Below, in pieces: positions 7,002-27,465 of a stretch of 64,000 bases of DNA. Position 1 is the stretch's first letter, and the number at the start of each line of letters is the position of its first letter. The notes under the pieces were generated by a model. That model was not told the DNA's origin. It saw nothing but the letters and a program-made list of their open reading frames with translations, and made no database searches. The stretch is from Marchantia polymorpha subsp. ruderalis (lineage: Eukaryota; Streptophyta; Marchantiopsida; Marchantiales; Marchantiaceae). A program made the translations under genes and the position numbers. The DNA lies in NCBI GenBank assembly GCA_037833965.1, contig AP031352.1, forward strand, positions 25,586,501-25,650,500. Reading direction: 5' to 3'.

Positions 7002-7063
7002 GAGGAGATGCGAGCAGGGAGCGTGCGGAGGCCGCACCATCGGCGGGTAATCCGCCGGTAGAT

Positions 7064-7675: not shown

Positions 7676-8061
7676 GGATCTTTCCCAACATCAGAAGTAC
7701 AGATCATGAGCCCATTTTCTCTGCGTGTTTGTGTCCTTAAGTTCTGTCACCACGCAAGAGGAGTTACAACTTAGCGTTCCGCATTTTGTAGCTGAAGGCC
7801 TTCGGCCGAATGTTCAGAGCTGGTACATTGGTTAGAGACTTGAGTAGTTCGGATCTACACCTGCGGGTGATTGCCGATGCTCAGAGCCAGTGACTAGTTA
7901 GATACTTGAATAGTTTCGCCCCTACACCTTCGAGTGTTTGTTCCTGATTGTACTCCTTCGAGATTTTTCCCCTGAATGCCAAAGTGAAGTTTTGCTACTT
8001 CGTGTAAGCCTTGGTTGTAAATTCAGGTTACGCTGCAGCAGGTGCCTTGGGGTAACCCCTG

Positions 8062-8518
8062 TAGTATTTCTGGGAATGACAAGTGCCTGAGAATTCAAAC
8101 TCTTCAATAGACTGTTGTTGTGTTACTGGAATGTTTCTCAGTGAGTGCTTTAGTGCGGACCTGTGTTCTCTGCGCGTTTTGTGAGTTGAGAGTGTTGTTC
8201 ACCGCGTATGACTGACTTCGATCCAAAGTAGGTAGTCCAAACCGGGTTTCCTACGCTAGCAGCAAGCTAGCGGAAGTGTTGTAAAAGCCGGAGTTGGGAG
8301 TCACTACCCGCAGCTTCGCTGAGTGTACTCTTGAGAGACTTTCCCCCTGAAATCTTGAGTAGAGGTCCTAACGGATCTCTAGGTTGTGTTTCTGTAGTTT
8401 CAGGTGTGTGTGTGTGTTACGCTGCACTGTGCGACCTCCGAGTGCGCTCCGAGTGGACACTTGCAGTATTTCTGGGAGTGACAGTCGCCTGAGAATTCAA
8501 ACTCCTCAATAGTCTGTT
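8062..8518 (+). repeat. Internal duplication of the tail (two copies about 403 bp apart)
   Basis: A 54-bp block AGTATTTCTGGGAATGAC...CAATAGACTGTT (8062-8115) recurs in diverged form at 8465-8518. The preceding parts also correspond: TTCCCCTGAATGCC versus TTCCCCCTGAAATC, then GGTTGT..., TTCAGG and TTACGCTGCA in the same order. The element tail is thus an old tandem duplication of about 0.4 kb, present in all copies of the family in this window. Confidence 0.7.
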
Positions 8519-8614
8519 AAACGTGACACTTTGTACCCTGTGTGTTCCTCTGTCCCTGTGGGTTCGACCTTTCTACCACTATATTGCAGTTTTAGCCTTT
8601 AGTGGGTTATTACA

Positions 8615-9073
8615 CCCACTGCTCCCATACGGAAGCGGCCACTACACGAAGTGTGCAGCCGGCCGAAGCAGAAGGCGCGCAGGCTTGTGTTACCAGCCAG
8701 CAGCGAGGAAACGGCGACGATCGCCACGGAGAAGGGAAGTGCGTCCCCGGAGAAGGATGGGACTGCGCGGACGTCCGCGGGAGCGGTGGACCACGCTACG
8801 CCTCCGGCGGACGAGAGACGGCCTTCGGGTCATGAGTTACCACGTGCGGCGCGGACGGGTGTGCCGCCTACGCACAGGCGACTCCCTGTGGATAGGCGAG
8901 CCCTTGCAGACGTGGACCTCTGCCTATGCGTAGGCAGAGAAAGTTTGCCTACGCACAGGCGGCCGCCTACGCGTAGGCAGGATTCACCCCCGGTGCAACG
9001 TAGGAAGGGGAAGGAGCCGGCGGAAGATCCGCCTTCGGCTCAAGGGCCTTCGGGGCAAGGCCCTCCGGCGGAC
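8615..9073 (+). pseudogene. Element C ORF, middle piece
   Basis: Continuation of the C reading frame after element G. It begins with the duplicated cccac, then the segment with SRPKQKARRLVLPASSEETATIATEKG and the Pro-rich VPPTHRRLPVDRR repeats, and stops at 9073 where small solo LTR copy 2 is inserted (sequence DPPSAQGPSGQGPPAD). It corresponds to the low-complexity centre of the 1045-residue B protein. Confidence 0.75.
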
Positions 9074-9933
9074 TGTAAGACCGGGTGTTGCACATATGTA
9101 CTAAGTCTTAGAAGTGGTCAAGAGAATAAGGATGATTAGCCAAGGCATAGCTAAGACTAGCTAGTTATGACTAAACTAGTTAGTTATAACTAAGTTTATC
9201 TAGTCATGACTAAGTTTAGCTACAATGTCTATAGTTGGCGGAATAATTAGCGGAGTTCTAGAAGAATGGAGTGAGCACTTCTATTTTGTCTTTTACAAGG
9301 AGTGAGCACTTCTATTTTGTCTTATACAAAAGTTCTAGATTCCAAGGGATTAGATATTTGACTAGAAGCTTGGATTTGATTGGTTTGACTAAATGTATGA
9401 AAGATGATTGGCTAGACTAAGTCTAATGTTGACTTAGTGGCTAGGAAGCTTGTAGAAGTTTAAAAGCTTCAAATGGCATGTCGCCACCTCAACCTTGGAT
9501 TCCGGAAGCTTCTAGAAGATTTAGGTAGGCCAATGGCATGTTGCCACGTAGAGAAGGTTAGTCAAACTTACCTAGGTAAAAGTAAGTTAGGAGAAATTAC
9601 CACATGTTACTATGGTAACTTCTCAAGTAGTATAAATAGAGAGGTAGAGTAGCACCTCTAAAGCAAGTTTGGAGAGTCATGTGTGAGGACTTGTTTCAGG
9701 AATGAAGGAGTGAAGTTTTTGAGTATCTTGGAGTATCGACGTGTGTTTGCGTTTGTGTGAAGAGAGTGATGTGAGGAGAGTTTGTGTGTGAGTTGGAGTG
9801 ATACATGGAGAGTTTGTGAGAGAAGATGTTTGGGACATTAGTGTGAGGATGAATCCTAGTCTTCTAGAACCATGATGCGCTACCGCAAAGCCATCAGAGG
9901 TAATCCTGAGTGAGAGTCAGCCCGGAGGTTGCA
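9074..9933 (+). mobile_element. Small solo LTR, copy 2 (TSD ggac)
   Basis: 860-bp unit TGTAAGACCGG...GGAGGTTGCA flanked by ggac at 9070-9073 and 9934-9937, inserted in the ORF of C. TATA box TATAAATA at 9631-9638. By eye it differs from copy 3 (19318-20176) at only about twenty positions, so both are recent. No coding capacity and no internal region. It is a different family from the large elements: shorter, 4-bp TSD and different termini. Confidence 0.9.
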
Positions 9934-11490
9934 GGACAGAGTGCCGGGATTTGCGCCTTCGGTGCCAGGGCCTTCGGGCCAACGAGTTACAAACAGGGAG
10001 CGTGCGGAGGCCGCAGTTCGGCGGGGAATCCGCCGGAAGATGCGCCTTCGGCGGAAGGGCCTTCGGGCCAAGGGACATCGGGCGGGCGACCTTCGGCTCT
10101 ATCACCTTCGGCGGTAGAAGCCTTCGGCGTTGCGCCTTCGGCGGATAACGCGCCGGGAATTGCGTCTACGCGTAGGCCGGACGCACCCCTCGCGCAGGAC
10201 CGATCGAGGGAGCAGGACCTAACGGAGGAGCGGATTGTCTGTCCGCAGGACGAAATTAGCGTGCGCGATGCACAATTGCACCTCGCGCAAACACATTCCG
10301 CTCGATCACCTTCGGAGGTGGACGCCGACGGCGAAGGAGTTACGATCGACGCACGACAGGCAGACGATGGGGATGTGGCACGGCCGCATTCACCCACCTC
10401 CTTGGACATTTAAGCAGGGAGCAGCGAGGCTGCAGGAGCGCCATCGGCGGCAGAACACGCAGACCACTCGCAGCCCCACTAAGGCCAGTCGCCAACGCAA
10501 TCAATGGCGACCGAAATCCTCCCTTCCGATGATGACGAAGGAGGATCCACGAAATCAGTGTCGGGATCGGGAGACACCGATGAGGAGGAGGAGGAGGAAG
10601 AAATAGTTGGTGCGCCGGCGGCGGCGCTCTTTGAGTAGGTAGTACCTCTGCTGAGGTACTTGGATCGCAAGATAGATAAGTACGCGCATCCTCGCCAGCC
10701 TGGGTCCTACGTCGAGTTAGTGCGCAGGCGAACTCGCACTAAAGTCCACACCAGCAAGCTTCTAGCTCGGGTGGACCGGGAACTTAAGGAACTGCGAGAG
10801 AAGCATGAATGCTTGTGGGGTCAGTATAATCTCATTTGGAAGACGTACACCCACTACGATAAAGGTGAAGAATGGGAGACTGGAAGAGCTCACCAAGGAT
10901 CTGGTGAAGGTCACGGAAGCACTGATTTCTGAGAAGACACAGAATCAGGTTTTGTCAGAGGAGTCGTGCGACAGACGCGGTTGTTGGAGCAGTGTCAGCT
11001 CGCACGACAGGCGGATGAGGATTTAATCCACAGGCTGCAGTCGGAGTGCGGAGAATTGAGAGCACAGCGTGCGGAGGCCGAATCGCAGTTGATAGTAATT
11101 GAAGACGATTGCAGGCGAGAGGCAGATCGCACGAAGGAAGAGATGGCGAGGCGAGTCGTCCACTATCTCAAGGGCTACGCCCACTGGGAAGTGGCGGCGT
11201 AGGAGAAACTCACAGTGCGTGAGTTAGAGCTTCGTGCAGCCGGGTTGTTGGCAGGTGACAGTCGGAGTCGGCGGCGGGTAGCGAAGAAGCTGGATTCTTT
11301 TCTATCAAAGGCGCGGGACACCATGTCTACCCTTGAGACAGAGGTTTCCGCGGTGTTGCGGCGATTGGGACTGCGCAGTCGAGCTGAGGACTGGCAAGGT
11401 AGGGAGTTGGTGCGCGGCAGTCTGTCGCGCAGGAGACGAAGCACAGGTTCCGCGGAGTGTAGTGTAGCGTGGTTCCGTGCCGGCGTGTAG
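9934..11490 (+). pseudogene. Element C ORF, C-terminal piece with several stops
   Basis: Resumes with FAPSVPGPSGQRVTNRERAEAA and runs to the normal C-terminus SVAWFRAGV at 11490. It contains the PLLRYLDRKIDKYAHP...GSYVELVRRRTRTKVHTSKLL block, the coiled coil (KELREKHECLWGQYNL, LLEQCQLARQADEDL) and the C-terminal GYAHWEV block. In-frame stops lie at 10411-10413, 10480-10482, 10636-10638 and 11200-11202. At the last two, B has a CAG codon, suggesting C-to-T decay. Compensating frame changes occur near 10,860 and 10,960. The copy is dead. Confidence 0.8.
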
Positions 11491-11526
11491 CGTAGTGTAG
11501 GGTAGTGTTAGTTAGGACTTAGAAGG

Positions 11527-11555
11527 TATAAAGTAGTTCAAGGCGTCTTGCCTTG
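11527..11555 (+). promoter_or_regulatory. TATA box and dyad of element C
   Basis: TATAAAGT at 11527-11534 and hairpin CAAGGC-GTCTT-GCCTTG at 11539-11555, 36 bp after the ORF stop. Same layout as in the other copies. Confidence 0.65.
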
Positions 11556-12283
11556 GGATCTTTCCCAATTTCGGAAGTGCAGATCAGGAACTCATTTTCT
11601 CTGCGTGTTTGTGTCCTTAGTTCTGTCACCACGCAAGAGGAGCTACAACTTGGCGTTCCGCATTTTGTAGCTGAAGGCCTTCGGCCGAATGTTCAGAGCT
11701 AGTACATTGGTTAGAGACTTGAGTAGTTCGGATCTACACCTGCGGTTGATTGCCGATGCTCAGAGCCACTGTCGAGTTAGATACTTGAGCATTTTCCCCC
11801 TTACACCTTTGAGTGGTTGTTTGTGATTGTACTCCTTCGGGATTTTTCCCCTGAATGCCAAAGTGAAGTTTTGCTACTTCGTGTAAGCCTTGGTTGTAAA
11901 TTCAGGTTACGCTGCAGCGGGTGCCTTCAGGGTAACCCCTGTAGTATTTCTGGAAATGACAAGTGCCTAAGAATTCAAACTCTTCAATAGACTGTTATGG
12001 TGTGTTACTGGAATGTTTCTCAGTGAGTCCTTCCGTGCGGACCTGTGTTCTCTGCGCGTTTTGTGAGTTGAGAGTGTTGTTCACCGCGCATGAGTGACTT
12101 CGATCCGAAGTAGGCAGTCCAAACTGGGTTCCCTACGCTAGCAGAAAACTAGTGGAAGGGTTGTAAAAGCCGGAGTTGGGAGTCACTACCCGCAGCTTCG
12201 CCGAGTGCACTCGCAAGAGACTTTCCCCCTGAAATCTTGAGTAGAGGTCCTAACGGATCTCTGGGTTGTGTTTCTGTAGTTTC

Positions 12284-12285
<2 letters not shown>

Positions 12286-12321
<36 letters not shown>
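12286..12321 (+). repeat. (GT)18 microsatellite in the C tail
   Basis: Pure GT dinucleotide run in the second half of the tail. Element G has only a short GT run here and B has (AC)13 at 14079-14104, so the array length varies between copies. Confidence 0.95.
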
Positions 12322-12324
<3 letters not shown>

Positions 12325-12518
12325 GCTGCACTGTGCGACCTCCGAGTGAGCTATGAGTGGACACTTGCAGTATTTCTGGGAGTGACAGTCGCCTGAGAAT
12401 TCAAACTCCTCAATAGTCTGTTAAACGTGACACTTTGTACCCTGTGTGTTCCTCTGTCCCTGTGGGTTCGACCTTTCTACCACTATATTGCAGTTTTAGC
12501 CTTTAGTGGGTTATTACA

Positions 12519-12665
12519 GGGAAAGAGGAACACACAGGGTACAAAGTGTCACATTTAACAGACTATTGAGGAGTTTGAATTCTCAGGCGACTGTCACTCC
12601 CAAAAATACTGCAAGTGTTCACTCGGAGCTCACTCGGAGGTCGCACAGTGCAGCGTAGTTCACTC

Positions 12666-12700
<35 letters not shown>

Positions 12701-13492
12701 GAAACTACAGAAACACAACCCAGAGATCGGTTAGGACCTCTACTCAAGATTTCAGGGGGAAAGTTTCTCGCGAGTACACCCAGCGAAGCTGCGGGTAGTG
12801 ACTCCCAACTCCGGCTTTTACAACCCTTCCACTAGTTTTCTGCTAGCGTAGGGAACCCAGTTTAGACTTCCTACTTCGGATCGAAGTCACTCGTACGTGG
12901 TGAACAACACTCTCAACTCACAAAACGCGCAGAGAACACAGGTCCGCACGGAAAGACTCACTGAGAAACGTTCCAGTAACACACCATAACAGTCTATTGA
13001 AGAGTTTGAATTCTTAGGCACTTGTCATTCCCAGAAATACTACAGGGGTTGCCTTGAAGGCACATGCTACAGCGTAACCTGAATTTACAACCAAGGCTTA
13101 CACGAAGTAGCAAAACTTCACTTTGGCATTTAGGGGAAAAATTCCAAAGGAGTACAATCAGGAACAAACACTCGAAGGTGTAGGGGCGAAACTATTCAAG
13201 TATCTAACTAGTCACTGGCTCTGAGCATTGGCAATCACCCGCAGGTGTAGATCCGAACTACTCAAGTCTCTAACCAATGTACTAGCTTTGAACATTCGGC
13301 CGAAGGCCTTCAGCTACGCAATGCGAACCGCCAAGGTGTAGCTCCTCGTGCGTGGTGACAGAACTAAGGACACAAACACGCAGAGAAAATGAGTTCCTGA
13401 TCTGCACTTCCGAAACTGGAAAAATCTCAAGGCAAGACGCCTTGAACTACTTTATACCTTCTCAGTCCTAACTAGCACTACACTGCAATATG
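12519..13492 (-). other. Tail of element A
   Basis: Non-coding tail of A in minus orientation. It includes the dinucleotide repeat (AC)16 at 12667-12698, both copies of the internal tail duplication, the dyad CAAGGC/GCCTTG at 13428-13444 and the TATA box at 13456-13450. Its last 63 bp lie on the other side of element C (1809-1871). No gene seen. Confidence 0.75.
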
Positions 13493-13880
13493 CTACACGC
13501 CTGCACGGAACCACGCTACACTACACTCCGCAGAACCTGTGCTTCGCCTCCTGCGCGACGGACTGCCGCGCACTAACTCCCTACCCTGCCAGTCCTCAGC
13601 TCGACTGCGCAGTCCCAAACGCTGCAACACCGCGGAAACCTCCGTCTCAAGGGTGGCCATGGTGTCCCGTGACTTCGATAGAAAAGAGTCTAGCTTCTTT
13701 GCCACTCGCCGCCGACTCCGACTCTCACCTGTCAACAACCCGGCTGCACGAAGCTCTAACTCACGCAGTGTGAGTTTCTCCTGCGCCGCCACTTTCCAGT
13801 GGGCGTAGCCCCTGAGACAGTGGCTGACTCGCCTCGCCATTTCTTCCTTCGTGCGATCTGCCGCCCGCCAGCGATCGTCT
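13493..13880 (-). pseudogene. Element A ORF, C-terminal end
   Basis: Minus-strand coding piece from the B insertion point down to the stop at 13495-13493. It reads DDRWRAADRTKEEMARR, CLRGYAHWKVAAQEKLTLRELEL, QRLGLRSRAEDWQGREL and ends SVAWFRAGV, exactly as in B and C. The other side of the insertion is 19279-19317, and cgtct is duplicated at 13876-13880 and 19279-19283. An apparent start in B's terminal sequence just to the right (MTLCTLCVPL...) is an artefact of the fusion. Confidence 0.8.
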
Positions 13881-14078
13881 TGTAATAACCCACTAAAGGC
13901 TAAAACTGCAATATAGTGGTAGAAAGGTCGAACCCACAGGGACAGAGGAACACACAGGGTACAAAGTGTCACGTTTTAACAGACTATTGAGGAGTTTGAA
14001 TTCTCAGGCAACTGTCACTCCCAGAAATACTGCAAGTGTCCACTCGGAGCGCACTCGGAGGTCGCACAGTGCAGCGTA

Positions 14079-14104
14079 ACACACACACACACACACACAC
14101 ACAC
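14079..14104 (+). repeat. (AC)13 microsatellite in the B tail
   Basis: Pure AC run, the counterpart of the GT run of C at 12286-12321 in opposite orientation. Confidence 0.95.
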
Positions 14105-14829
14105 CTGAAACTACAGAAACACAACCCAGAGATCCGTTAGGACCTCTACTCAAGATTTCAGGGGGAAAGTCTCTCGCGAGCACACTCGGCAAAGCTGCGG
14201 GCAGTGACTTCCAACTCCGGCTTTTACAACGCTTCCACTAGCTTGCTGCTAGTGTAGGAAACCCGGTTTGGACTACCTACTTCGGATCGAAGTCACTCAG
14301 ACGCGGTGAACAACACTCTCAACTCACAAAACGCGCAGAGAACACAGGTCCGCACTGAAGTACTCACTGAGAAACATTCCAGTAACACAACAACAGTCTA
14401 TTGAAGAGTTTGAATTCTCAGGCACTTGTCATTCCCAGAAATACTACAGGGGTTACCCTCAAGGCACCTGCTGCAGCGTAACCTGAATTTACAACCAAGG
14501 CTTACACGAAGTAGCAAAACTTCACTTTGGCATTCAGGGGAAAAATCCCAAGGAGTACAATCAGAAAGAAACACTCGAAGGTGTAGGGGCGAAACTGTTC
14601 AAGTATCTAACTAGTCACTGGCTCTGAGCATCGGCAGTCATCCGCAGGTGCAGTTCCGAACTACTCAAGTCTCTAACCAATGTACTAGCTCTGAACATTC
14701 GGCCGAAGGCCTTCAGCTACAAAATGCGGAACGCTAAGTTGTAACTCCTCGTGCGTGGTGACAGAACTCAAGGACACAAACACGCAAAGGAAATGGGTTC
14801 CTGATCTATACTTCTGATGGGAAAGAACC

Positions 14830-14858
14830 CCAGGCAAAACGCCTGGAACTATTTTATA
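14830..14858 (-). promoter_or_regulatory. TATA box and dyad of element B, with a compensatory base-pair change
   Basis: TATAAAAT at 14858-14851 (minus) and hairpin CCAGGC-GTTTT-GCCTGG at 14846-14830. In the other four copies the stem is CAAGGC/GCCTTG. B has changed A to C on one side and T to G on the other, keeping the pairing. Confidence 0.7.
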
Positions 14859-14894
14859 CCTTCTAGGTCCTACCTAGCACTACACTGCACTACG

Positions 14895-17800
14895 CTACAC
14901 GCCTGCACGGAACCACGCTACACTACACTCCGCGGAACCTGTACTACGTCTCCTACGCGGCCGACTGCCGCGCACTAACTCCCTACCCTGCCACTCTTCC
15001 GCTCGACTACGCAGTCCCAACCGCTGCAACGCCGCGGACACCTCCCCCTCGAGGGCGGACATGGTATCCTGTGCCTTCGACAGAAAGGCCTCGAGCTTCT
15101 TCGCTACCTTCCGCCGACTCCTACTGTCGCCTGACAACAACCCGGCTGCGCGCAATTCAAACTCACGCAGTGTGAGTTTCTCCTGCGCCTTCACTTCCCA
15201 GTGGGCGTAGCCCTTGAGACAGTGGGCGACTCGCCTCGCCGTCTCCACCTTCGTGCGATCCGCCTCCTTCCTGCGATCCTCTTCAATCGTCACTAATTGC
15301 GATTCGGCTTCAGCACGTTGCGCTCTCAATTCGCCACACTCTGACTGCAAACTGCGGATTAATTCTTCATCCGCCTGCCGTGCGAGCTGACATTGTTCCA
15401 ACAACCGCGTCTGTCGCACGAGCTCCTCTGACAAAATCCGATTCTGGGCCTGCTCAGAATCGAGTGCTTCCTTGACCTTCACCTGCTCCTTGGTGAGCTC
15501 GCCCAGTTTCTCATCCTTCATCTTCTCGGAGTGCTTGTAGAATTTCTGATTAAGCTTGTACTGTCCCCACAAGCACTCATGCTTCTCCTTCAAGTCCCTC
15601 AACTCCTGGTCCACTCTAGCTAATAGCTTGCTGGTGTGGACTTTAGTGCGAGTCCGCCTGCGCACTAACTCGATGTAAGATCCCGGCTGGAGTGGGTCGG
15701 CGTATTTATCGACCTTGCGATCCAAGTACCGCAGCAACGGAATCACCTGCTCAGAGAGCGCCGCCGCCGGCGCTCCAACAATTTCCTCCTCCTCCTCCTC
15801 GGTGTCTTCTGCTCCTGACATTTCTTCCGTGGAGCCTCCGTCGTCATCATCCGAGTGGAGAATTTCAGTCGCCATTGATTGTGTCGGCGACTGCCCCGAG
15901 TGGGGCTGCACGTCCTCGACGTGTGCTGCCTGCGAAGGCACGGCTGCAGCCTCGCTGCTCGTCGCCAAAATGTCTAAGGCGGAAGGCGAATGTATCCGAG
16001 CGGCATCCCCGCCGCTCGCTGGTTGATTGCCTACCGCATTCTCTCTGTCGCCGTCGTCCGTCGCCGAAGGCGATTGAGCGGAGGGTGGCTGCGCGGGGTT
16101 GGATTGCGCATCGCGTATCGAGATTTCATCCCGCGGACAGTCACTCCGCTCCTCCGTCTGCTGCTCCCTCGATCGGTCCGTGGGGGCTGTGCCCGGCCCG
16201 TGCGCAGGCGCATTTGCCGGCGCCTTGTCCGTCGCAGGCGTAGCGCTGCGGACATCTATCGCCGAAGGCGACATGGCCGGGGGCCGCACGCCCGATGTTC
16301 CTTGGCCTATAGGCCCTACCGCCGAAGGCGCATCTATCGGCGGACTTCCCGCCGATGGTGCGGCCTCCGCACGCTCTCTGCTCGTATCTCCTCGGCTCGA
16401 AGGCCCTGGCGCCGAAGGCGCAAATTGCGGCGCGTGGTGCGCCGAAGGGTCTGGCCCCGAGGGCCGGTGTCTCGTAGGCGGTTCTTCCGCCGGCTCCTTC
16501 CCCTTCCTGCGTTGGAACGGGGGTGAGTCTTGCCTGTGCACAGGCGGCACGTGTGGAGGTGTCCTGTGCACAGGCGACCTGTGCACAGGTGAGCGCCTGT
16601 GCACAGGCGGACTGCTCCTTCCCACGCGTAAGCGTAGATCCACGTCCACTTGTGTTCGCCGGTCCGCGGAGGCTCGTCCGTCCGCGGAGGTTCGCCTGTG
16701 CGCAAACGGAACATCTGTCCGCATCGCACGTGGTAACTCCGGAGGCCCTTGGCCCGTAGGCGGCCTCTCTCCCGACGAGGTTGCAGCGTGGCCCGTTGTT
16801 CCTTGGGTCGTCCGCGCTTCCTCTCGCCTTTCTGGCGACGCACTTCCTATCTCCGTCGCAATCGTCGCCGTGTCTGCACTGTCAGCTGGTAACACCAGTC
16901 TGCGTGCCTTCTGCTTCGGCCGGCTGTATGGCTCGCACAGCGGCCGCGGTCGAATGGGAGCAGAGGGTTCCTGATGCTGCTCCTCTTCGGACTCTTCCCT
17001 CCATCGCCGCTTCCGCGGCACTCGCGCTGCAGGAGTGTGTCTCCCTTCATCCCTCCGTCTTGATGGGGTAGAAGTCGGTGACTCCTCCGCATCAGTGTCG
17101 ACCTCGTTCTCCCGCACATACTTCCCGGGATGGTCGATGGACAATGGCGGAAAATGTTCAAGCTCCGCCGCTGTCAAACAATTCCGCTGTCGATAAAAAT
17201 TGATGAGGAAAGGAGAAAGATGGTTTAGAGTTCCCCCCTTCTCCTCAAACGCGTGCTGTCGCATCACCCTGTGCAGGATGCTCGCCCAGTGAATTGGAGT
17301 TCCCTCGATGACGCACTCCACAAAAGAGACCTGCCACAATGTGATGTAGCAGGCGCGGTGCGGCTGCAGTAATTGCATCAGCGCCGCGGACAGAGTCCGG
17401 CGAAATCGATCCTTGTAATCACGGGTCCTGTACCCATTCTTGGTAGACCTCCCGGTCTTGAACAGCTCCACAAATTGCGCCTCTTCTTGCTTGGTCACCT
17501 TGATGCTCTCACTGTCGAAAAGGAGATGCCCTGGCATGCCAGCACATCTTCCCAACGCCTGCGCCCAATCTTGGACTGTCCACCGGTCAACATGCGGACG
17601 CAATCCGCGCGAGGGTGGCCCCTGTGACTCTAGCCACTCGCGCACCATATTCGCGCAGATGTAATTCCATCCCCATAGCAAGAAATCGAGCTTTCTTGCT
17701 ATTAAGCGCTCTTCGAAAGCGCGCAGCCCGTTCTGCGGCAGGCGAAGTGGCACCATCCGCAATCTGCTCGGTCTCGTCATTGCGTTCCTGGGGTTCGCTC

Positions 17801-18032
17801 GCCCGCTCATTCTACTTCCGCACTGTCCGCGTTTCTTTCTCTCTCGGCAAACTCTAATCGCTCTCAATTCCAAATCACGCGCACTCACTTCTCCCTCAAT
17901 CAACAAGAAATCTCCTGTGTGACGACGTCGAGAATGGTCCGCAGCCAGCAGATGGATGCGCGCAGCGCGCACAAGAGATTGGAATCGCGAATTCAAGAAT
18001 GGGACGTTCTCCGCCGCCCGGTCGAAGGTCAT
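14895..18032 (-). CDS. Intact 1045-residue element protein (unknown function)
   Basis: The only uninterrupted ORF of the family in the window. Residues 1-84 are basic (MTFDRAAEN...). Met85 (codon at 17780-17778) aligns with the first Met of elements F and O and is an alternative start. Residues about 90-310 form the conserved core: LRAFEERLIARKLDFLLWGWN, GRCAGMPGHLLFDSESIKV, NGYRTRDYKDRFRRT, LLQPHRACYITLWQVSFVE, HLSPFLINFYRQRNCL. Then comes a long Pro/Arg/Gly/Ser-rich, repeat-built linker, an acidic EEEEE tract, the block VIPLLRYLDRKVDKYAD with GSYIELVRRRTRTKV, a coiled coil (QCQLARQADEELIRSLQSE), HCLKGYAHWEVKAQEKL and a basic end RPRRRRSTGSAEC. I see no integrase, reverse transcriptase or DDE signature. 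The core-plus-coiled-coil layout suggests a DNA-, RNA- or self-binding structural protein. A distant link to plant transposase_32-type retroelement domains is possible but unproven. Confidence 0.8.
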   Translation of the reverse strand: MTFDRAAENVPFLNSRFQSLVRAARIHLLAADHSRRRHTGDFLLIEGEVSARDLELRAIRVCRERKKRGQCGSRMSGRANPRNAMTRPSRLRMVPLRLPQNGLRAFEERLIARKLDFLLWGWNYICANMVREWLESQGPPSRGLRPHVDRWTVQDWAQALGRCAGMPGHLLFDSESIKVTKQEEAQFVELFKTGRSTKNGYRTRDYKDRFRRTLSAALMQLLQPHRACYITLWQVSFVECVIEGTPIHWASILHRVMRQHAFEEKGGTLNHLSPFLINFYRQRNCLTAAELEHFPPLSIDHPGKYVRENEVDTDAEESPTSTPSRRRDEGRHTPAARVPRKRRWREESEEEQHQEPSAPIRPRPLCEPYSRPKQKARRLVLPADSADTATIATEIGSASPERREEARTTQGTTGHAATSSGERPPTGQGPPELPRAMRTDVPFAHRRTSADGRASADRRTQVDVDLRLRVGRSSPPVHRRSPVHRSPVHRTPPHVPPVHRQDSPPFQRRKGKEPAEEPPTRHRPSGPDPSAHHAPQFAPSAPGPSSRGDTSRERAEAAPSAGSPPIDAPSAVGPIGQGTSGVRPPAMSPSAIDVRSATPATDKAPANAPAHGPGTAPTDRSREQQTEERSDCPRDEISIRDAQSNPAQPPSAQSPSATDDGDRENAVGNQPASGGDAARIHSPSALDILATSSEAAAVPSQAAHVEDVQPHSGQSPTQSMATEILHSDDDDGGSTEEMSGAEDTEEEEEEIVGAPAAALSEQVIPLLRYLDRKVDKYADPLQPGSYIELVRRRTRTKVHTSKLLARVDQELRDLKEKHECLWGQYKLNQKFYKHSEKMKDEKLGELTKEQVKVKEALDSEQAQNRILSEELVRQTRLLEQCQLARQADEELIRSLQSECGELRAQRAEAESQLVTIEEDRRKEADRTKVETARRVAHCLKGYAHWEVKAQEKLTLREFELRAAGLLSGDSRSRRKVAKKLEAFLSKAQDTMSALEGEVSAALQRLGLRSRAEEWQGRELVRGSRPRRRRSTGSAECSVAWFRAGV
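16530..16611 (-). repeat. Four CCTGTGCACAGG palindromes in 80 bp of the B ORF
   Basis: Perfect 12-bp palindromes in the Pro-rich coding part of B, translated as PVHRR, PVHRS and PPVHRQ. More of them than at the same place in G, so the cluster expands and contracts between copies. Confidence 0.8.
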
Positions 18033-19278
18033 GGTCGGCTCTTGGTCGTGAAGAACGTCTCACTTGATGGCCGCGCCGGCTGTACGCTGGAACGGTCTTC
18101 GCTCTCACGCGCGGCTTCACGCTCCGCCGTCGTCGATTAAACTCTCACGCTCGAATTGGCGGATTTGAACTCCGCGAGCGTGTCACCCTGTGGACATGGG
18201 GGCGTAGCGCCGAAGGCGAGTTTTCCGCCTTGCGCGGTACACTTGTTCGTACCGCCCCTCGGCCAATCTCCTTCTGCCTTGACGCGTGTGTCCGCATGTC
18301 GGACAAAAATTCAACTCCTGCCTGTGCGCAGGCAGGGGCCTCGGCGGATTCTCCGCCGGCGCGGAACTTGAACATCCTCCTGTGCACAGGCGTTCGCCTG
18401 TGCGCAGGCGAATTCCGTCCGCGGCGCTGCGCTGGCGCGGAAGGCGTTGACCGTGGTCAGCCGTCTCCGTCCAGTCTGTCCGTTCCTTGTCTCTCCGTCG
18501 GCGCTTCCGCCGCCGCAACTCCGTCCGTCCAAGAGCGCATCCACCCGTGCCGTCCGCACGGTCCGTACCTGTTGGATTACTCTGGCGGCTCTTCCGACGT
18601 ACGCGGCGCTGCGCTGGCGCGGAAGGCGCCGTACACTTTCTACCTCACAAGGCGCATTTCTAGGGCCCAAGGCGGATTTTCCGCCGACGCCGAAGTGCCT
18701 GTGCACAGGCGTACGCCTGTGCGTAGGCGGACTTCGCGCCTTCCCTAACCCTACTTCGCCTGTGCACAGGCGAACGCCTTCGTCCGTGCATAGGACAAAA
18801 CTTGAATCCCCCTTCCGCGTAGGCGGAATTCGCGCCGGTGGCGAACTCCTTCCGCCGTAGGCGACCGCCTCCGTTTCTTCCAGTAGCGATAACTCCCTAA
18901 GTCCTCGTCCGTTCCAAGCGTTCTTGGGCTCGTTAGAATCAGCGCGTCGAGCTCTTTCCAACGGGACCCTAACTTGGTCAAGGCGCCCAAGGGTTGACCT
19001 AATTACGGGGGCTTCCCTACAGCCGCGGACGCAACCTCCGAAGGCGGGTTTTGCGCCTTGCGCCGTAGAGATCCTAACTGCGGAGCTCGCAGGGAGGGTG
19101 GTGCCTGTCCTTACTGCGGCACCCCAAATCCCAGATTCTACAAGATCCCTCGAGAATCCCCGCGATCTTCCGGATTCACTCTGTTTTGATGTACTGAAGG
19201 CTATTTACAATGCTGCCAGGGTACAGTTTTTCAAAAATGTTTTAATTTCCTCAAAATTGCCAAAAGTGGGGTACCACA
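18033..19278 (-). other. Leader of element B
   Basis: GC-rich non-coding leader, 1246 bp, read leftwards from the terminus at 19278 to the ATG at 18032. It carries CGCCTGTGCACAGGCG-type palindromes (for example near 18402 and 18692) and the GTACGG repeat. Frames open across it are not conserved in C, G or A. Confidence 0.6.
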
Positions 19279-19317
19279 CGTCTTCAACTACAACTAACTG
19301 CAATTCGGCCTCCGCAC
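19279..19317 (-). pseudogene. Element A ORF, 39-bp island between B and small solo LTR copy 3
   Basis: Minus strand reads AEAELQLVVVEDD, which matches the AEAESQLVVIEEDRR segment of the coiled coil in G. It links 20177-22813 to 13880-13493. Its two edges are the TSD copies of B (cgtct) and of the solo LTR (gcac at 19314-19317). Confidence 0.8.
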
Positions 19318-20176
19318 TGTAAGACCGGTTGTTGCACATATGTACTAAGTCTTAGAAGTGGTCAAGGGAATAAGGATGATTAGCCAAGGCATAGCTAAGA
19401 CTAGCTAGTTATGACTAAACTAGTTAGTTATAACTAAGTTTATCTAGTCATGACTAAGTTTAGCTACAATGTTTATAGTTGGCGGAATAATTAGCGGAGT
19501 TCTAGAAGAATGGAGTGAGCACTTCTATTTTGTCTTTTACAAGGAGTGAGCACTTCTATTTTGTCTTATACAAAAGTTCTAGATTCCAAGGGATTAGATA
19601 TTTGACTAGAAGCTTGGATTTGATTGGTTTGACTAAATGTATGAAAGACGATTGGCTAGACTAAGTCTAATGTTGACTTAGTGGCTAGGAAGCTTGTAGA
19701 AGTTTAAAAGCTTCAAATGGCATGTCGCCACCTCAACCTTGGATTCCGGAAGCTTCTAGAAGGTTTAGGAAGGCCAATGGCATGTTGCCACGTAGAGAAG
19801 GTTAGTCAAACTTACCTAGGTAAAAGTAAGTTAGGAGAAATTACCACATGTTACTATGGTAACTTCTCAAGTAGTATAAATAGAGAGGTAGAGTAGCACC
19901 TCTCAAGCAAGTTTGGAGAGTCATGTGTGAGGACTTGTTTCAGTAATGAAGGAGTGAAGTTTTTGAGTATCTTGGAGTATCGACGTGTGTTTGCGTTTAT
20001 GTGAAGAGGGTGATGTGAGGAGAGTTTGTGTGTGAGTTGGAGTGATACATGAGAGTTTGTGAGAGAAGGTGTTTGTGACATGAGTGAGAGTATGAATCCT
20101 AGTCTTCTAGAACCATGATGCGCTACCACAAAGCCATCAGAGGTAGACTTGAGTGAGAGTCAGCCCGGAGGTTGCA
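19318..20176 (+). mobile_element. Small solo LTR, copy 3 (TSD gcac)
   Basis: 859-bp unit TGTAAGACCGG...GGAGGTTGCA, TSD gcac at 19314-19317 and 20177-20180, inserted in the coiled-coil coding region of A. TATA box at 19875-19882. Nearly identical to copy 2 and a little more distant from copy 1. Confidence 0.9.
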
Positions 20177-22813
20177 GCACGCTGTGCTCTCAATTCCCCG
20201 CACTCGGACTGCAGTCTGCGGATTAATTCCTCATCCGCCTGCCGTGCGAGCTGACACTGCTCTAACAACCGTGTCTGTCGCATGAGCTCCCCTAACAACA
20301 TTCGATTCTGAGCCTGCTCAAAATCCAGCTCCTCTGTGAGCTTCGCCTTCTCCTTGACGAACTCTTCCAGCTTCTCGTCCTTCACCTTGTCGAAGTGGTT
20401 GTACAACTTCTTATTGAGGTTGTACTGACCCCACAGGCACTCATGCTTCTCCCGCAGATCCTTAAGTTCCTGGTCCACACGGGCCAGCAACTTGCTGGTG
20501 TGGACTTTAGTGTGAGTTCGCCTACGCACTAACTCGACGTAAGACCCATGCTGGCGAGGATCCGCGTACTTCTCCATCTTATGATCCAGATACCTTAGCA
20601 GAGGTACTACCTGTTCACAGAGCGCCGCCGTCGGCGCGCCTACCATTTCCTCCTCCTTTTCTGTGGATCCCGATCCCGACACTGATTCCGTGGATCCTCC
20701 TTCTTTGTCATCCTCCGAATTGAGGATTTCGGTCGCCATTGAATGCGTCGGCGACTGGCCTATGCGGGGCTGCGAGATGTCTGCGTGCTCTGCCGCCGCT
20801 GGCGCTCCTGCAGCCTCGCTGCTCCCTGCTAAAATGTCTAAGGCGGTGGGTGAATGTGGCCGTGCCAAATTCCCATCGTCCGCATGTCGTGCCGCGACTG
20901 TAACCTCTTCGCCGCCGGCGTCTACCGCCGAAGGCGATCGTGCGGAATGTACCTGCGCGGGGTGTAATTGTGCATCGCGCGCACGAATTTCACCCTGCGG
21001 ACAGTCAATCCGCTCCACCGATCGGTCCTACTCCACCCTTAGGTCATGCGCCAGGGATGCGTCCGGCCTAGGCGCAATTCCCGGCGCTTCTTTCGCTGAG
21101 GGCGCAGCGCCGAAGGCGTCTACCGCCGATGGCGGTTGAGCCGAAGACGGCCCGCCCGATGTCCCTTGGCTCGAAGGCCCTTCCGCCAAAGGCGCACCTT
21201 CCGGCGGATTCCCGCCAAAGGCGCGGCTCTCGCCGGCTCTCTGTTTGTAACCCGCTGGCCCGAAGGCCCTAGCGCCGAAGGCGCATATCCCGGCGATCTC
21301 ACCGCCAGAGGGCCTTGCCCCGAAGGCCCTTGAACCGAAGGTGGATCTTCCGCCGGCTCCTTCCCCTTCCTACGTTGCACCGAGGTGAGTCTTGCCTATG
21401 CGTAGGCGAACCTTCTCTGCCTATGCGTAGGCACAAGTCTACGTCCGCAAGGGGTCGCCTATCCACAGGGAGTCGCCTATGCGTAGGCGGCACACTCATC
21501 CACGCCGCACGTGGTAACTCCTGACCCGAAGGTCGTCTCTCCTCCGCCGAAGGCATAGGGTGGTCTACTGACCCCTCGGCCGCCCGCGTAGTCCCATCCT
21601 TCTCCGGGGATGGACTTCCTTTCTCTGTGGCGATCGTCGCCGTTTCCGCGCTGCTGGCAGGTAACAAAAGCCTGCGCGCCTTCTGCTTCGGCCTGCTGCA
21701 GATCTCGTGCAGTGGCCGCTTCCGGGTGAGAGCAGCTGATTCTTGATGTTGCTCTTTCTCTGGTTCCTCTCTCCATCTCCGCTTCCGCGGCACTCGCGCT
21801 GCGGATGTGTCTCTGCCCGCATCCTGTTGACCCGGTGGAGTGGAAGTCGGTGAATCCTCCGCGTCGGTGTCTACTTCGTTATCCCGCACATACCTCCCGG
21901 GATGGTCGACTGACAATGGCGGAAATCGATCACGCTCGGCCGCGGTTAAACAATTCATCGACCGATAAAAGTTTATCAAGAAGGGGGAGAGGTGATTGAG
22001 CGTTCCTCCCCGCTCCTCAAACGCATGCTGTCGCATCACCCTATGCAGGATACGCTACCAGTGAACTGGAGCTCCAGCCAATGTGAGCTCCACGAAGGAC
22101 ACCTGCCACAACGTGATGTACGTAGTGCGGTGCGGCTGCAACAGTTGCAGCAGCGCCATCGCTACAGTCATGCGGAAACGATCTTTGTAGTCCCGGGTCC
22201 TGTACCCGTTCTTGGAGAACCTCTCCCGCTGGAACAATTTCACAAACGAAGCTTTGTCCGCCTTCGTTACCTTGACGCTTTCACTGTCAAACAGGAGGTA
22301 CTCGTCCTCACCTGTGCATCTCCCCAATGCCTGTCCCCAATCGTGGACAGTCCATCGATCTACGTGCGGACGGAATCCGCGCGTAGGTTGTCATTCCTCG
22401 TCCAGCCATTCGCGCATCATGTCTGCGCACACGTAATTCCATCCCCACAGCAAGAATTCGAGTTTCCTCGCAATCAGCCGATCCTCAAAAGGACGCAATC
22501 CATTCTGCGGGAGCTTGAGTGGCACCATCCGCAGCTTCATCGATGTTGACATCGCGTTCTTGAAATTGGTTTGCGCAACTCTCTCTCTGCTATGCCCGAG
22601 CCTCTTGCTCGCGGTTTTGTTTCTTCTGCAAACTCCAATCTCTCTCAATTCCAAATGTCGCGCACTCAATTCTCTCCCTGCCACCAGGTAACTCTCCGCG
22701 CGGTGGTGTCTAGAACGTCTCTCGGCTAGAAGGTGGACGCGCGCAGCTCGCACAAGAAATTGAAATCGCAAATTCAAGAATGGGGTGTCCTCTGTCCTCT
22801 CGCAGGGGGTCAT
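20177..22813 (-). pseudogene. Element A ORF, N-terminal and central part (stops and frameshifts)
   Basis: ATG at 22813 (MTPCERTED). The core is recognisable (LRPFEDRLIARKLEFLLWGWNYV, GRCTGEDEYLLFDSESVKV, LQPHRTTYITLWQVSFVEL, LSPFLINFYRSMNCL). There is a TGA at 22393-22391 and a TAG at 22057-22055, frame changes near 21,380 and between about 21,250 and 21,120, and then an open stretch from 21018 through VVPLLRYLDHKMEKYADP, GSYVELVRRRTHTKV and the coiled coil to the solo LTR at 20176. The continuation lies at 19317-19279 and 13880-13493. The copy is dead. Confidence 0.8.
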
Positions 22814-23503
22814 GGTCGGCTCTCGGTCGTGAAAGCCGAATCACTTGATGACTGCGCCAGCTTCGAGGTATAACGGCCTTTTCTCTCACGCGCGGCTTCA
22901 CGCTCCGCCGACGCGCCTTCACTCACACGCTCGAATTGGCAATTTGAACTCCACCAACGTACCACGCCGCGGCCATGGTCGCGCAGCGCCGAAGGCGGAT
23001 TTCTCGCCGACGAAACAGCATTACTCCGTACTTCAACTTGGCTAGTCCCGCTCCGCCGAAGGCATTCGTCCGCGCATAGGACAAAAGCCAAACTCCCTTT
23101 TGGGTAGGCGGAATCCCCGGCGGAGCTTCCGCCGGCGTCAAACTTCATCCGCCTGTGCGTAGGCGCTCGCCTATGCGTAGGCGAAATCCGTCCGCACACA
23201 AGACGCTCGTCCGCACAGGTCCCTCGCGGTAGGCGCAACGCCGAAGGCGACTGTGCCGAAGGTGTTGGCTGCGGTCAACGAACTCCGTCCAGTCTGTCCA
23301 TCTCTCTCGCCTCTCCGTCGGCGCTCTTGTCTCCAAAACCCCGACCGGCCGAAGACGCACTCGTCCGTTCCGTCCGTATAGCCCGTACGGTCCGTACGGA
23401 TTTCGCTACTCTGTTGGGTCCTCACCTAACCGTGATGCGCTGGCGCTGAAGGCGCCGTACAAGTTCCAACCCCGAAGGCGGATTTCTAGGTCCGAAGGCG
23501 GAC
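22814..23503 (-). other. Proximal leader of element A
   Basis: Non-coding GC-rich leader of A, cut at 23503 by element F. It includes the inverted GTACGG repeat near 23374-23400 and palindromes such as CGCCTATGCGTAGGCG near 23168. The distal leader continues at 28389-28974. Nothing else seen. Confidence 0.65.
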
Positions 23504-24877
23504 TGTGGTAACACACTTTTTGTTTTTTTGCAGAATTTAAACAATTTTAGAAAACTAGTACCGAAGCAGTGTTTGTAGTTAGAAAAGGGTACGCTAAATA
23601 GAGTGGATTGAGGAGATCGTCACGAGGTCACGAAGAATCGCGTAGTCGGATGTACCAACGCCAATGTCTTCGGCGCCTTCGGCAAAAGCTCCTTTTCTAA
23701 GGTGTCTCTACTCACGCGCTTCCAGCGTTTAAGGAAGCTACGCTTCTGGCGCAGACACCTCCGGAGGAGATTTTGCTAAAGACGTCAGAAGAAGGGCCCG
23801 GACCTCTGAAGGCTTCCAACCATGAGTGCGCCTTCGGCGATGCGCCGCTAGCGCGGAAAGGGAAACCTTCATAATGATCGGAATACACGGTAGTTCCAGT
23901 TGGTTGAAGTTGCATTAGAAAGAGCTCGGGACGCTCGTCCTAACGAGCCCAAGAGCGTTGGAGATGGATCAGGGACGAAGAAGTTATGAGCATCGGAAAA
24001 CTCATAGCCGGACATGCGCCGTTCGCGCTAGGGTTCACAGTCGGAAAGGACTCCCGTACGCCTTCGGCGATGCGCCTTCGGCGGAATCGCGCGCTCATGG
24101 AAGGAAAGCAACTCAGAGTCGGAAGCGCCTTTGGCGGCTGCGCAACGGAAGAAACGCGCCGGCCGGATGTACGCCTCCGACGTGGCGCTGATAGCCGGAT
24201 GCGCTGGCATGATTTGCGCTGGTATGACTTGCGCCGGCGGGATATGCGCCGTCAGCAATGGACGAGGCAGAAAGGACAAAACAAGCGGTACGAATACGCG
24301 CCGGCGTAATTCACGCCGACTGGATGTGCGCATCCAGCAAGGCGCCAACGGATAAGGAACACGCCAGCGGCGACACGCCTCCGGTGATGGACGGGTTAGG
24401 AAAAGACAACATAGCCGACGTATACCCTGCGGCGGACTCGAGTCCGGAAGACGGTGGCAGCGGGAGAATTCAATATTCACGCATGCGAATGCGCGCAGTG
24501 CGGAGACGTGAATTTGAGCATGCAAGGGCGAACCGCTAGGCCGTATAGCCGGCTGCGTACGTTGTAACCAGTAAGAACGTTGGACGATCTTGAATTTGGA
24601 GAAGAAAAGACTGCTCTCTAGTCTCATTCTCTCATTCTTGATTTTACGATTTCCAGCTTCCAAGAATTCGCGCAAGGGCGGAGAGACCTGCAGAGAGAGG
24701 AGAGAGTGCGGAGGCGAGTTGCGCAAGGATCTTGACAGACCTTGGAGAGAATTGCGAGTAGCGAACTTGAGCGAGGGAGAAGAGAGAGTGAGCAGTCAGT
24801 GCTTGAGCGGCCGACGCGCAGTGGCGATTGTGAGAGAGCGAGCGAAAGGGAGAACGTTTGTGTGTGCAGGAACCGCA

Positions 24878-27433
24878 ATGTCGAAGGTCCCCCAGCTGCG
24901 AGTGTCTCCACTCAGGGTGCCGCAGATCGGTCTACGCGCATTTCAAGATGTGCTGATGGGGCTGAAGCTTGATTTCCTCCTGTGGGGATGGAACTGGACA
25001 TGTCCGGAGATGGTGCGCGAGTATCTGCAGGAGAGACACAAGCCCTCACGCGGATTCCGTCCACATCCAGAGAGGTGGGACATTTGTGACTGGGCGCAGG
25101 TGTTGGGCAGGTGTTCCGGCGAGGAAGGGTATCTCCTATTCGAGGCCGATAGCGTGAAGGTGTCCCAGGAGGAAGAAATCTCCTACAACGAGCTTTTCAA
25201 AGTTGCCAGGCATCCCAAAAACGGCTTCCGGACACGGGGTTACAAAGATCGATTGCGGAGAAATGTCGCGACTGCATTGTTGCAGATATTGCAGCCGACC
25301 AAGACCGCTTACATGCATGGTTGGCAGGTAGGATTTGTGGAGCTAGTGCTGTCAGGAGCTCCAGTGCATTGGGCACGGTTCCTGTGGAAGGTGACGCGCC
25401 AACATGCGCAAGAAGAGAGAGGAGGAACCCTCAATCATCTTTCGCCTTACCTGATTGTGTTTTATCGGGCGATGGGATGTTTGACAAATTCAGAGCGGAC
25501 ACGGTTTCCGCTGCTGACACGGAGCTATCCAGGTAGATACTCACGGGAGGCCGAAGTAGACACGGATCCGGACGAGGAACCTGCCAGTCCGCCTCCGGCT
25601 CCGCCCCCAGCAAGAGCAGCAGAAGAACGTCGAAGTGAGCGCGTTCCGCGGAAGCGGAAGTGGGATGAGAGACCTGAGGACAGGCAGCCGGAAGCGCCAG
25701 CTGCGCCGACTCATAGTCGGCCCACCAACGAGCCTCACAGCCGACCAAAACAGAGGGCACGCAAAATGCCAACTAGTACTGAGGAGACCGGGCGTACTCC
25801 GGTCCGGCGGAATCCCACGTAGGAGGAGATAATCGCGCAGATTCTGGGGAAGTCGACAAATCCCTCTGCGCAGAAGGCACCAATGCCTTCGGAAGAAGAT
25901 GGACGGACTGACAGTCGGCCGACTACGAGTCGGGCGACTGAAGGTCGACAGACGGAAGGAAGGTTGACTGAGCGGCGCGTTGAACCGGACAGCAGGCCGG
26001 AAGCAGAAGGGAGTTTGGCTGACGAGCCAACAACCCTCAGAGGGTCGCCTTCGGCGGAAAGCACTTCTGGGAAAACGACGCCAGCAAGCAGGCCAAGTGG
26101 AATGAAGACGCGCAGGGTGTATCCGACTGCCAGTCGGACAACTGCTAGTCGGCCGACTGCGAGTCGATCAACAGAGAGTCGGCCAGATTCGCCGACTGCG
26201 AGACGGACAGGGCCGGCGACCAGTGTGCGGACGCCTTCGGCGGACGCACCTCCAGCTAAGACGCCTTCCGCGCAGATCGCGCCGGAAGGGCAGGCAGCAG
26301 AAGCAGGCGGTGCAAAGGTGACAAAAGTCACTACGGCGTCGACCCCTTCGGAAACCGAAGATCTAGCCGGAACAGGGGCTCAAGCAGTGAGATACCCCAC
26401 TGCCTTGGATATTTTAGCAGGGAGTGGAGCGGCAGTCGCGGCGGAAGCTTCTGCGCGCCACAGTTCTAGGGAGTCGCCAAGGGATTCAGTGGCGACTGAA
26501 ATCCTTGAAACTGAGGATGAGACGAGCTCGGAAGAGCAGGAAGCGGATTCTGTACAGAAAACGCCAACATGGGTGTTGTGCGAGCAGATAGTTCCACTCC
26601 TGCGATATCTGGATCGCAAGACATCCAAGTACTCGGGTACAGGAAAACCGCAGTCTTATGTGGAGACTGTCAAGCGCAGGACGAGGAGCAAGGTGGCCAC
26701 TTGGGCCTCTAGGTGCCAAGTATTGCAGGATAGGAACACTACCCTCCGACAACACCTGGCGGTCACACAGAAGCTATACCAAACCTTGCAGCAGCAGAGG
26801 GAGGATGCGGCGACGAAAAACCAGGCGGATGCTGAGCTAATGCGGGCAAAGATCGAGTCGGAATTGCAGGAAGAGCGGAGACAAAACCGCATCTTAGCAG
26901 CAGAGCTTGCGCGCCAGACGCGCGCCTTAGAAGAAAGTCAAAGAACACGCCAGGAGGTTGAGGAGTTGTTGCGCAGCTTGCAATCCGAGTGCGCGGATTT
27001 GAGGGCGCAGCGCGCAGATGCGGAAATGCAGCTAGCAGAGGTGGAAGGCAGCTGCCGGGCGCGAGAAGAGTTGGCGACGCGGGTGACTCACTGTCTAAAA
27101 GGATACGCCCATTGGGAGGTGGCAGCTCAAGAGAGGATCACACTCAGGGTGTTTGAGCTTCGGGCGGCGGCATTGACGGAAGGTGATAGTCGGAGTCGGC
27201 GGCGAGTAGCGAGGAAATTAGAATCCTTCTTGTCGGGTGCGCGCGACACTATGGCGCACTTAGAGTCGGAAGTGACTGCAACCCTCCGACGCCTGGGGTT
27301 GCGCAGCCGGTCGGAAGATTGGCAGGGTAGAGATAGAGAGCGAGGCAGTCTGGCGCGCAGGAGGCGCAGCACCGGATCTGCCGAGTGCAGTAGTATACTT
27401 TGGTTTCGTGCAAGTGTTGCGAGTAGTAGATAG
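24878..27433 (+). pseudogene. Element F ORF with a single in-frame TAG
   Basis: ATG 24878 (MSKVPQLRVSPLRVPQ). The upstream frame is open to about 24590 but has no ATG. Core: GLKLDFLLWGWNWTC, GRCSGEEGYLLFEADSVKV, GYKDRLRRNVATALLQILQP, GWQVGFVELVLSGAPVHWA, LSPYLIVFYRAMGCL. TAG at 25820-25822, after which the same frame continues through the Ser/Arg/Thr-rich linker, IVPLLRYLDRKTSKYSG, the coiled coil, CLKGYAHWEVAAQERI and the basic end to 27433. With the one stop ignored the product from 24878 is about 850 residues. One nonsense change in an otherwise clean ORF means recent inactivation, or less likely programmed readthrough. The start shows that residues 1-84 of the B protein are not conserved. 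Confidence 0.75.
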
Positions 27434-27465
27434 GATAGCGTAGTGTTAGTTAGGACCTTTGAGGG

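Follow-up and report, generated by a model that had tools for sequence, protein, structure and literature searches.

A conserved protein gene predicted in the U3 region of giant long terminal repeats of a Ty3/gypsy retrotransposon in Marchantia polymorpha

A 64,000-nucleotide stretch of the genome of Marchantia polymorpha subsp. ruderalis (contig AP031352.1 of assembly GCA_037833965.1; G000:C3:25586501-25650500; below, the window) contains several related repeat units, among them the complete unit B. With a probability of about 0.86, these units are solo long terminal repeats (LTRs) of a Ty3/gypsy element that carries a conserved protein gene in the U3 region of its LTR. We assign the element to an autonomous-type lineage of Ty3/gypsy LTR retrotransposons. 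The surprising part is that a conserved protein of 1,045 amino acids (aa) is encoded wholly in the U3 of an abundant plant LTR family; LTRs are usually taken as non-coding and solo LTRs as inert or regulatory scars.

Unit B and the complete element

Unit B (13881..19278, minus strand) is 5,398 bp long and begins with TGTGGTA. It reads 5'-TGTGGTACCCCAC...GTGGGTTATTACA-3', with TGTGGTACCCC at its start and GGGTTATTACA at its finish, and comparison of the flanks revealed a perfect 5-bp target-site duplication (TSD), CGTCT, with the left copy at 13876..13880 and the right copy at 19279..19283. Allowing up to one mismatch, GGGTTATTACA occurs five times in the window, compared with a mean of 0.61 and a maximum of 4 in 100 shuffles. 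The unit has a single long frame of 1,054 codons from stop to stop; the open reading frame (ORF) counted from its first Met has 1,045 codons (14895..18032, minus strand; LTR positions 1247-4384 with the stop codon). A TATAAAA box (14852..14858, minus strand) follows 36 nt past the ORF stop codon, is found in all 24 copies scored below and contains the only TATAAA of the B LTR. This box was taken as the promoter of the genomic RNA, with U3 upstream of it and R and U5 downstream. Length, TG..CA ends, duplication, single long ORF and TATA box after the ORF all agree with a preliminary description of the window that had been made from its letters.

A search of the genome (241.5 Mb, nine contigs) with unit B gave 4,593 first-look candidates, 24 of which were scored as near-full copies; the 23 besides B itself are 98-99% identical to it over the full length. 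Several direct pairs of the B-type LTR, 11.19 kb apart, were found on contigs C4, C6 and C7, and six interiors (L031-L036) were retrieved. The complete element is about 16.6 kb long and consists of a 5.39-kb LTR, a 5.80-kb interior and a second 5.39-kb LTR. In all six interiors TAAGAAGCCGACAACTTCTTTTTGGCGCCGCTGCCGGGGA stands directly after the LTR end TTATTACA, and an 18-nt primer-binding site (PBS), TGGCGCCGCTGCCGGGGA, lies 22 nt past the LTR. It is complementary to the 3' end of tRNA-Asp plus CCA; a tRNA-Asp PBS is typical of Tat/Athila elements. The genome contains 29 exact occurrences of GGTTCGATCCCCGGCAGCGGCG and four with one mismatch, and both of the two sites fetched were identified by ARAGORN as tRNA-Asp(gtc). 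At six loci of the PBS complement ARAGORN found no tRNA gene; these loci are elements. At the other end of the interior a polypurine tract (PPT), GAGGAGGGGGGCA, precedes TGTGG in four of the six, where the interior end reads TTGAGGAGGGGGGCA; L035 and L036 end in other sequence.

One interior was searched frame by frame with Pfam. Retrotrans_gag, zf-CCHC, RVT_1, RT_RNaseH, Integrase_H2C2 and rve matched above their cut-offs, and a protease match was significant, just under its cut-off. The resulting order of gag, protease, reverse transcriptase (RT), RNase H (RH) and integrase is the Ty3/gypsy order, and the best matches of the RT-RH region among PDB chains are Ty3 chains (7q5b, named Ty3-G); 4ol8, also among the matches, is presumably Ty3 as well. 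No chromodomain, which at the integrase C-terminus is the mark of chromoviruses, was detected in this interior up to E 0.01, a threshold that a degenerate form could escape. Likewise, no second RNase H, which would mark the Tat lineage, was detected in it at E 0.01. In both interiors measured, only 37 nt separate the pol stop codon from the 3' LTR.

Gag-pro and pol lie in one frame and are split by TAG CAATTA in all six interiors (at about 2916-2918). With the stop codon left open, the pattern of this boundary matched 542 genomic places and all 100 listed have TAG; the pattern demanded CARYTA and the places are close copies, so that conservation of the TAG is what this comparison tests. CARYYA after a stop codon is a readthrough context, and UAG CAAUUA is the context of the tobacco-mosaic-virus type. 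The gag-stop-pol organisation is called very rare in the excerpted text of a Verticillium paper (PMC3441728).

Read in element orientation, ten of the 24 scored copies are solo LTRs: each is a single unit with a perfect 5-bp duplication, adjoined by no PBS and no PPT. One of the ten, L010, belongs to a tandem cluster that also includes L009 and L012. The remaining 14 copies are bordered on one side or both by a PBS or a PPT. In both complete elements checked (L021/L022, AATAC; L023/L020, ATACT) the outer duplications agree, and the two LTRs within them differ at 12 and 13 positions over 5.39 kb; these LTR pairs are young. L018 and L019, which are 36 kb apart and 1.8% diverged, were excluded as a single element. 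The LTR 3' end AGTGGGTTATTACA has 3,567 exact matches in the genome (36 for a reversed-pattern control), the LTR-PBS junction 798 and the PPT-LTR junction 910 (0 for the control of either). Because a complete element has one PBS junction for every two LTR ends, some 2,000 LTR ends are attributable to solo or truncated copies, a rough figure that counts exact matches of patterns spanning different subfamilies (the GGTGGG ends of the G type, described below, are missed by the LTR-end pattern). Of the 56 PBS junctions listed for contigs C1 and C2, 19 are followed by an exact PPT junction at a distance of 5,787-5,802 bp, and the other 37 lack one there.

Altogether, the element has two direct TG..CA LTRs around one interior, a 5-bp TSD, a tRNA PBS and a PPT, which are the features of an LTR retrotransposon. 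The preliminary description had hesitated between giant LTRs with a U3-encoded protein and a new element class. As members of a new class, the units would be complete and would move themselves with the U3-ORF protein as recombinase. In favour of this, a second LTR, a PBS and gag-pol are all missing from the window units, and single copies flanked by 5-bp duplications are frequent. It had also reported that gag and pol are missing from the window; our blastn and tblastn searches found no gag or pol of the B element there, but the window units are solo LTRs and the statement is true of the window only. The search it had suggested, for direct pairs of unit B with a PBS and gag-pol between them, found such pairs, with the PBS 22 nt after the LTR end. 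Direct pairs around a PBS, a coding gag-pol interior and a PPT, together with the 798 and 910 exact junctions, refute the new class, to which we give practically no credence, and TG..CA termini with a 5-bp TSD are the ordinary LTR pattern. The new class was therefore rejected, and the reading as giant LTRs stands.

Some copies lie in tandem. LTR-interior-LTR-interior arrays with a period of 11.18-11.19 kb were seen at G000:C2:31345316-31384686 and C6:8281765-8309532 and probably arose by unequal recombination between elements. In a cluster on C7 (G000:C7:25590602-25624578; L009, L010, L012, L035, L036), three LTRs differ at 2-5 of about 5,390 positions, both interiors end in a sequence other than the PPT and the same TTGAT stands ahead of each LTR. 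This cluster seems to be a tandem duplication that took in flanking DNA.

Conservation of the U3 reading frame

Twenty of the 24 copies retain the whole 1,054-codon frame at one and the same LTR position, and in the other four a stop codon cuts it. In the 24-copy alignment no gap run falls in the ORF and ten distinct ones fall elsewhere, four of them being length variants of a single GT repeat; substitutions are equally frequent inside (1.54%) and outside (1.55%). For the 20 intact copies pN/pS is 0.189 in the frame versus 1.23 and 2.02 in the shifted frames; gag-pro of the six interiors, taken for comparison, has 0.27. Polymorphisms shared by at least two of the 24 copies comprise 82 synonymous, 40 nonsynonymous and 1 stop change, where 1,000 neutral placements gave means of 38, 82 and 3.4. 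The private ones comprise 83, 74 and 2, against neutral means of 50, 103 and 6.5. Comparisons between families were made on the rows of two protein alignments, one of the N-terminal (A1) and one of the C-terminal region (A2), with 10 of the 16 rows of A1 and 6 of the 14 of A2 included and pairs sharing fewer than 60 codons dropped. Here dN/dS ranges from 0.08 to 0.51 for the pairs that allowed dS to be computed (saturation affects many comparisons), and third codon positions are the most variable in every non-identical comparison given. These patterns indicate that the U3 ORF has been under past purifying selection as a protein gene.

The frame might alternatively be kept open for a reason at the nucleotide level, such as an enhancer array, an RNA structure or a packaging signal. 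The B LTR does contain 10 perfect 12-nt palindromes (mean 1.4 and maximum 6 in 200 shuffles), seven of which are CCTGTGCACAGG and span LTR positions 509-2735; G has four palindromes (mean 1.1). The palindromes of the B LTR are possible protein-binding sites. Constraint nevertheless tracks the codon frame, with third positions changing most and gap runs avoiding the ORF, and CTGTGCACAG is absent from G although G keeps the ORF family. We regard a nucleotide-level cause as very improbable.

One complete element has an identical ORF stop, at aa 366, in both LTRs. Because both LTRs are copied from one template, this element was probably inserted with its U3 ORF already broken, gene conversion being the alternative. 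The product would therefore be supplied in trans or be dispensable in the short term.

The ORF extends beyond the close copies of B. Unit G of the window (23504..28388, plus strand) is a 4,885-bp LTR of a diverged family with the TSD CGGAC/CAGAC (4/5). Its U3 ORF frame (24575..27433 from stop to stop, plus strand) has one internal stop codon at 25820-25822, and a TATAAA lies 32 nt beyond its end. The layout of ORF and then TATA box, with a gap of 32-36 nt, thus recurs in G, and two genomic G copies begin directly at a PPT junction. The H remnant (29293..29868, minus strand), read as a domain remnant only, represents a third, more diverged family, with an N-terminal domain about 40% identical and one internal stop; a further N-terminal domain fragment, 49% identical to B, lies at 62051..62380 (plus strand). 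Genome searches for the N-terminal domain returned 7,945 first-look candidates for the G query and 6,916 for the H query; 150 were scored in each case, and many of the scored H-type ones contain stops. Of the six PBS loci at which ARAGORN found no tRNA gene (L045-L050, picked from C1 in file order), four have a match to the C-terminal domain upstream of the PBS. The matches are strong in L045 and L050, two loci that had themselves contributed pieces to the profile; their independent support comes from an earlier tblastn search (E 5e-49 and 4.5e-18). L048 (E 0.00016) and L046 (E 0.005) gave weak matches, and upstream of the PBS in L047 and L049 no C-terminal domain match was found. By these sequence comparisons, the ORF frame is kept in diverged relatives, at least one of them in a different LTR family.

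LTR end and PBS are separated by a spacer of about 20 nt (L031-L036, L045-L050) that shows, by eye, a possible small hairpin in some families. The arms of the hairpin differ between families (AAGAAG/CTTCTT, AGATAAA/TTTATCT), and they are short or doubtful in L046, L048 and L050. On C1 (5.59 Mb), a segment of about 280 kb occurs three times, at about 2.23-2.51, 2.62-2.91 and 2.99-3.26 Mb, with nearly the same order of LTR ends. This contig makes up 2.3% of the genome, yet about 50 of 150 listed H-type domain matches fall on it by hand count; it looks like an ampliconic sex chromosome.

The remaining LTR units of the window are related to B. The identity of A, C and F to B is 65-93% over the pieces aligned by blastn, compared with 67-75% for G. 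Unit A (4207..8614, plus strand) is a solo LTR with the perfect TSD CCCAC/CCCAC and an internal deletion of LTR positions 2950-3862, within the ORF. It is nested in unit C (1872..12518, plus strand; TSD GGGAT/GGGAA, 4/5), which is split by A and by another insert at about 9074-9942. Unit F (12516..28974, minus strand) is an older LTR in pieces (blastn pieces 28974-28588, 23502-21473, 21408-20175 and 13880-12516) without a clean 3' end and with a frame interrupted by stops; its pieces are apparently one unit, the host into which G and B inserted. The preliminary description had given five units 5-bp TSDs and one long ORF each. This applies to B in full and to three others in part, since A has a perfect TSD and a partly deleted ORF and the TSDs of C and G are off by one base; it fails for F. 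The window also has three copies of another repeat, about 0.75 kb long (at about 889-1651, 9069-9821 and 19304-20051; pieces 92-99% alike), and two of the copies fall within the spans of units C and F. A frame at 56671-57312 weakly resembles PDR/ABC-2 transporter families (E 0.009 and 0.7, both under the cut-off) and is probably an exon of a host transporter of the pleiotropic-drug-resistance (PDR) type.

The predicted protein and its possible origin and role

The conserved N-terminal domain of the U3 protein covers about aa 91-300 (17133..17762, minus strand) and is common, in alignments A1 and A3, to units A, C, F and G and to the H and 62-kb remnants. Basic runs follow it, including RKRR at aa 340 (RKRK in G). 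The stretch RVPRKRRWR (aa 337-345; 16998..17024, minus strand), which reads RVPRKRKWD in G in alignment A1, resembles a nuclear localisation signal and may act as one. Residues 301-640 are proline-rich, with 53 Pro. The C-terminal region, about aa 757-1045 (14898..15764, minus strand; alignment A2), is rich in E, K, R, Q, L and A and is probably a coiled coil, judging from this composition and from sub-threshold coiled-coil matches in Pfam. No convincing Pfam family was found for B, the other window frames, the 16 members of A1 or the 14 of A2 at E values up to 10; matches of A1 and A2 members are single and weak (best E 0.004), those shown being below the cut-offs, and the A1 profile had no sequence match in the PDB. 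From sequence alone, we infer that the U3 protein may be a nuclear, oligomeric accessory protein, the nuclear-factor role being tentative and given somewhat less than even odds.

A second Gag-like or Env-like structural protein would occupy the same position behind pol, as env-like ORFs do, and the proline-rich linker and the coiled-coil-like tail could build particles. The element, however, has its own gag, which includes capsid and zinc knuckles, and no structural Pfam or PDB match was obtained for the U3 protein. A structural function in place of a nuclear regulator therefore appears unlikely.

We propose that the genomic RNA starts past the TATA box of the 5' LTR and runs through pol into the U3 of the 3' LTR. 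The U3 ORF would then be the third gene of this RNA, carried once, in the U3 of the 3' LTR, and reverse transcription would copy it into both LTRs. Recombination between the LTRs would leave the ORF behind as a gene-bearing scar. Most simply, the ORF might have been a 3' accessory ORF, like those that follow pol in other plant gypsy elements, and have been engulfed once the PPT came to lie just behind pol: with the plus-strand primer site there, everything up to R would be copied into both LTRs, giving a giant U3. Alternatively, a host gene or the gene of another element might have been captured into U3. The absence of Pfam similarity, and hence of a link to known accessory ORFs of plants, for example the ones with a transposase 28 domain, is compatible with capture. 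The ORF family is nevertheless old (dS from 0.2 to saturation) and the same layout occurs in more than one LTR family, so that any capture predates the split of the families; we consider capture rather unlikely, though a serious contender to displacement of an accessory ORF.

In the last and weakest step of the proposed mechanism, the protein would work in trans inside the nucleus, as an accessory factor that assists either transposition or transcription driven by the element's own LTRs. Taken further, the LTR would be a self-contained gene cassette, each solo LTR being an independent gene for a nuclear factor that acts in trans on the LTRs of the family. We think this quite improbable. If it were true, deletion of elements would disperse their regulator, and the resulting feedback would differ from that in elements whose LTRs are non-coding.

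Several points weigh against the interpretation as a U3-encoded protein gene with such a role. The 24 copies include tandem arrays and LTR pairs and hence are not independent, and the U3 ORF is a predicted gene, read from DNA. Upstream of its ORF the B LTR has no TATAAA, and a U3-internal promoter is thus not evident. The element with the broken ORF seems to have transposed, in which case the protein would not be needed in cis. AlphaFold models of the N-terminal domain from 16- and 18-row alignments were unusable, with mean pLDDT (predicted local distance difference test) values of 33.7 and 39.3, and what points to an origin through a shifted PPT is the position of the ORF only.

The location in U3 means that each transposition duplicates the gene and each deletion to a solo LTR preserves it. 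It bears on the evolution of LTR boundaries through the position of the PPT and on repeat annotation, in which LTR copies by the thousand may be labelled as genes or as unknown repeats. It also bears on whether a solo LTR can, through a protein, act back on its own family.

Comparison with known elements

Large retrotransposon derivatives (LARDs) such as Sukkula have LTRs of 4-5 kb and non-coding interiors. The B element is similar in LTR length, but its interior encodes gag-pol and its LTR itself encodes a protein; assignment to the LARDs was rejected because of the coding interior. A Ty3/gypsy lineage described in PMC10508981 likewise has a pol without a second RNase H and is present in both Marchantia genomes examined there; the text on this lineage, within the excerpt available, does not mention a U3 ORF.

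Accessory ORFs beyond gag-pol are also found, in most copies of the respective family, in Athila, Bagy2 (env-like), Grande (gene23), RIRE2 and Retand, and the Grande product is nuclear, according to passages of PMC7264820. These ORFs are internal and mostly lie between pol and the 3' LTR, whereas in the B element this gap is 37 nt and the ORF lies in the LTR. Retrosat2 of rice resembles the B element in having LTRs of more than 3.2 kb and an extra ORF0 of unknown function; as given in extracts of PMC3485330, ORF0 lies upstream of gag-pol and outside the LTR, the U3 of which comprises positions 1-244. Searches of the open-licence literature on LTR ORFs, additional ORFs and Marchantia or liverwort elements, covering titles, abstracts and selected passages, yielded no plant precedent for an LTR-encoded ORF; the case in PMC1560396, in the part consulted, is a host gene inside a retrotransposon and not an ORF encoded by the LTR.

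LTRs are ordinarily non-coding, and the sag gene of mouse mammary tumour virus (MMTV), a reverse-transcribing element, has most of its length within the U3 of the LTR, as described in sections of PMC4667437. Pfam searches of the U3 protein gave no convincing match that would tie it to the MMTV superantigen. Sag is the superantigen of an animal retrovirus; here the gene has 1,045 codons, belongs to a plant Ty3/gypsy element and lies wholly in the LTR. The layout of the B unit, with the ORF on the sense strand, inside U3 and upstream of the TATA box, is of the MMTV sag type.

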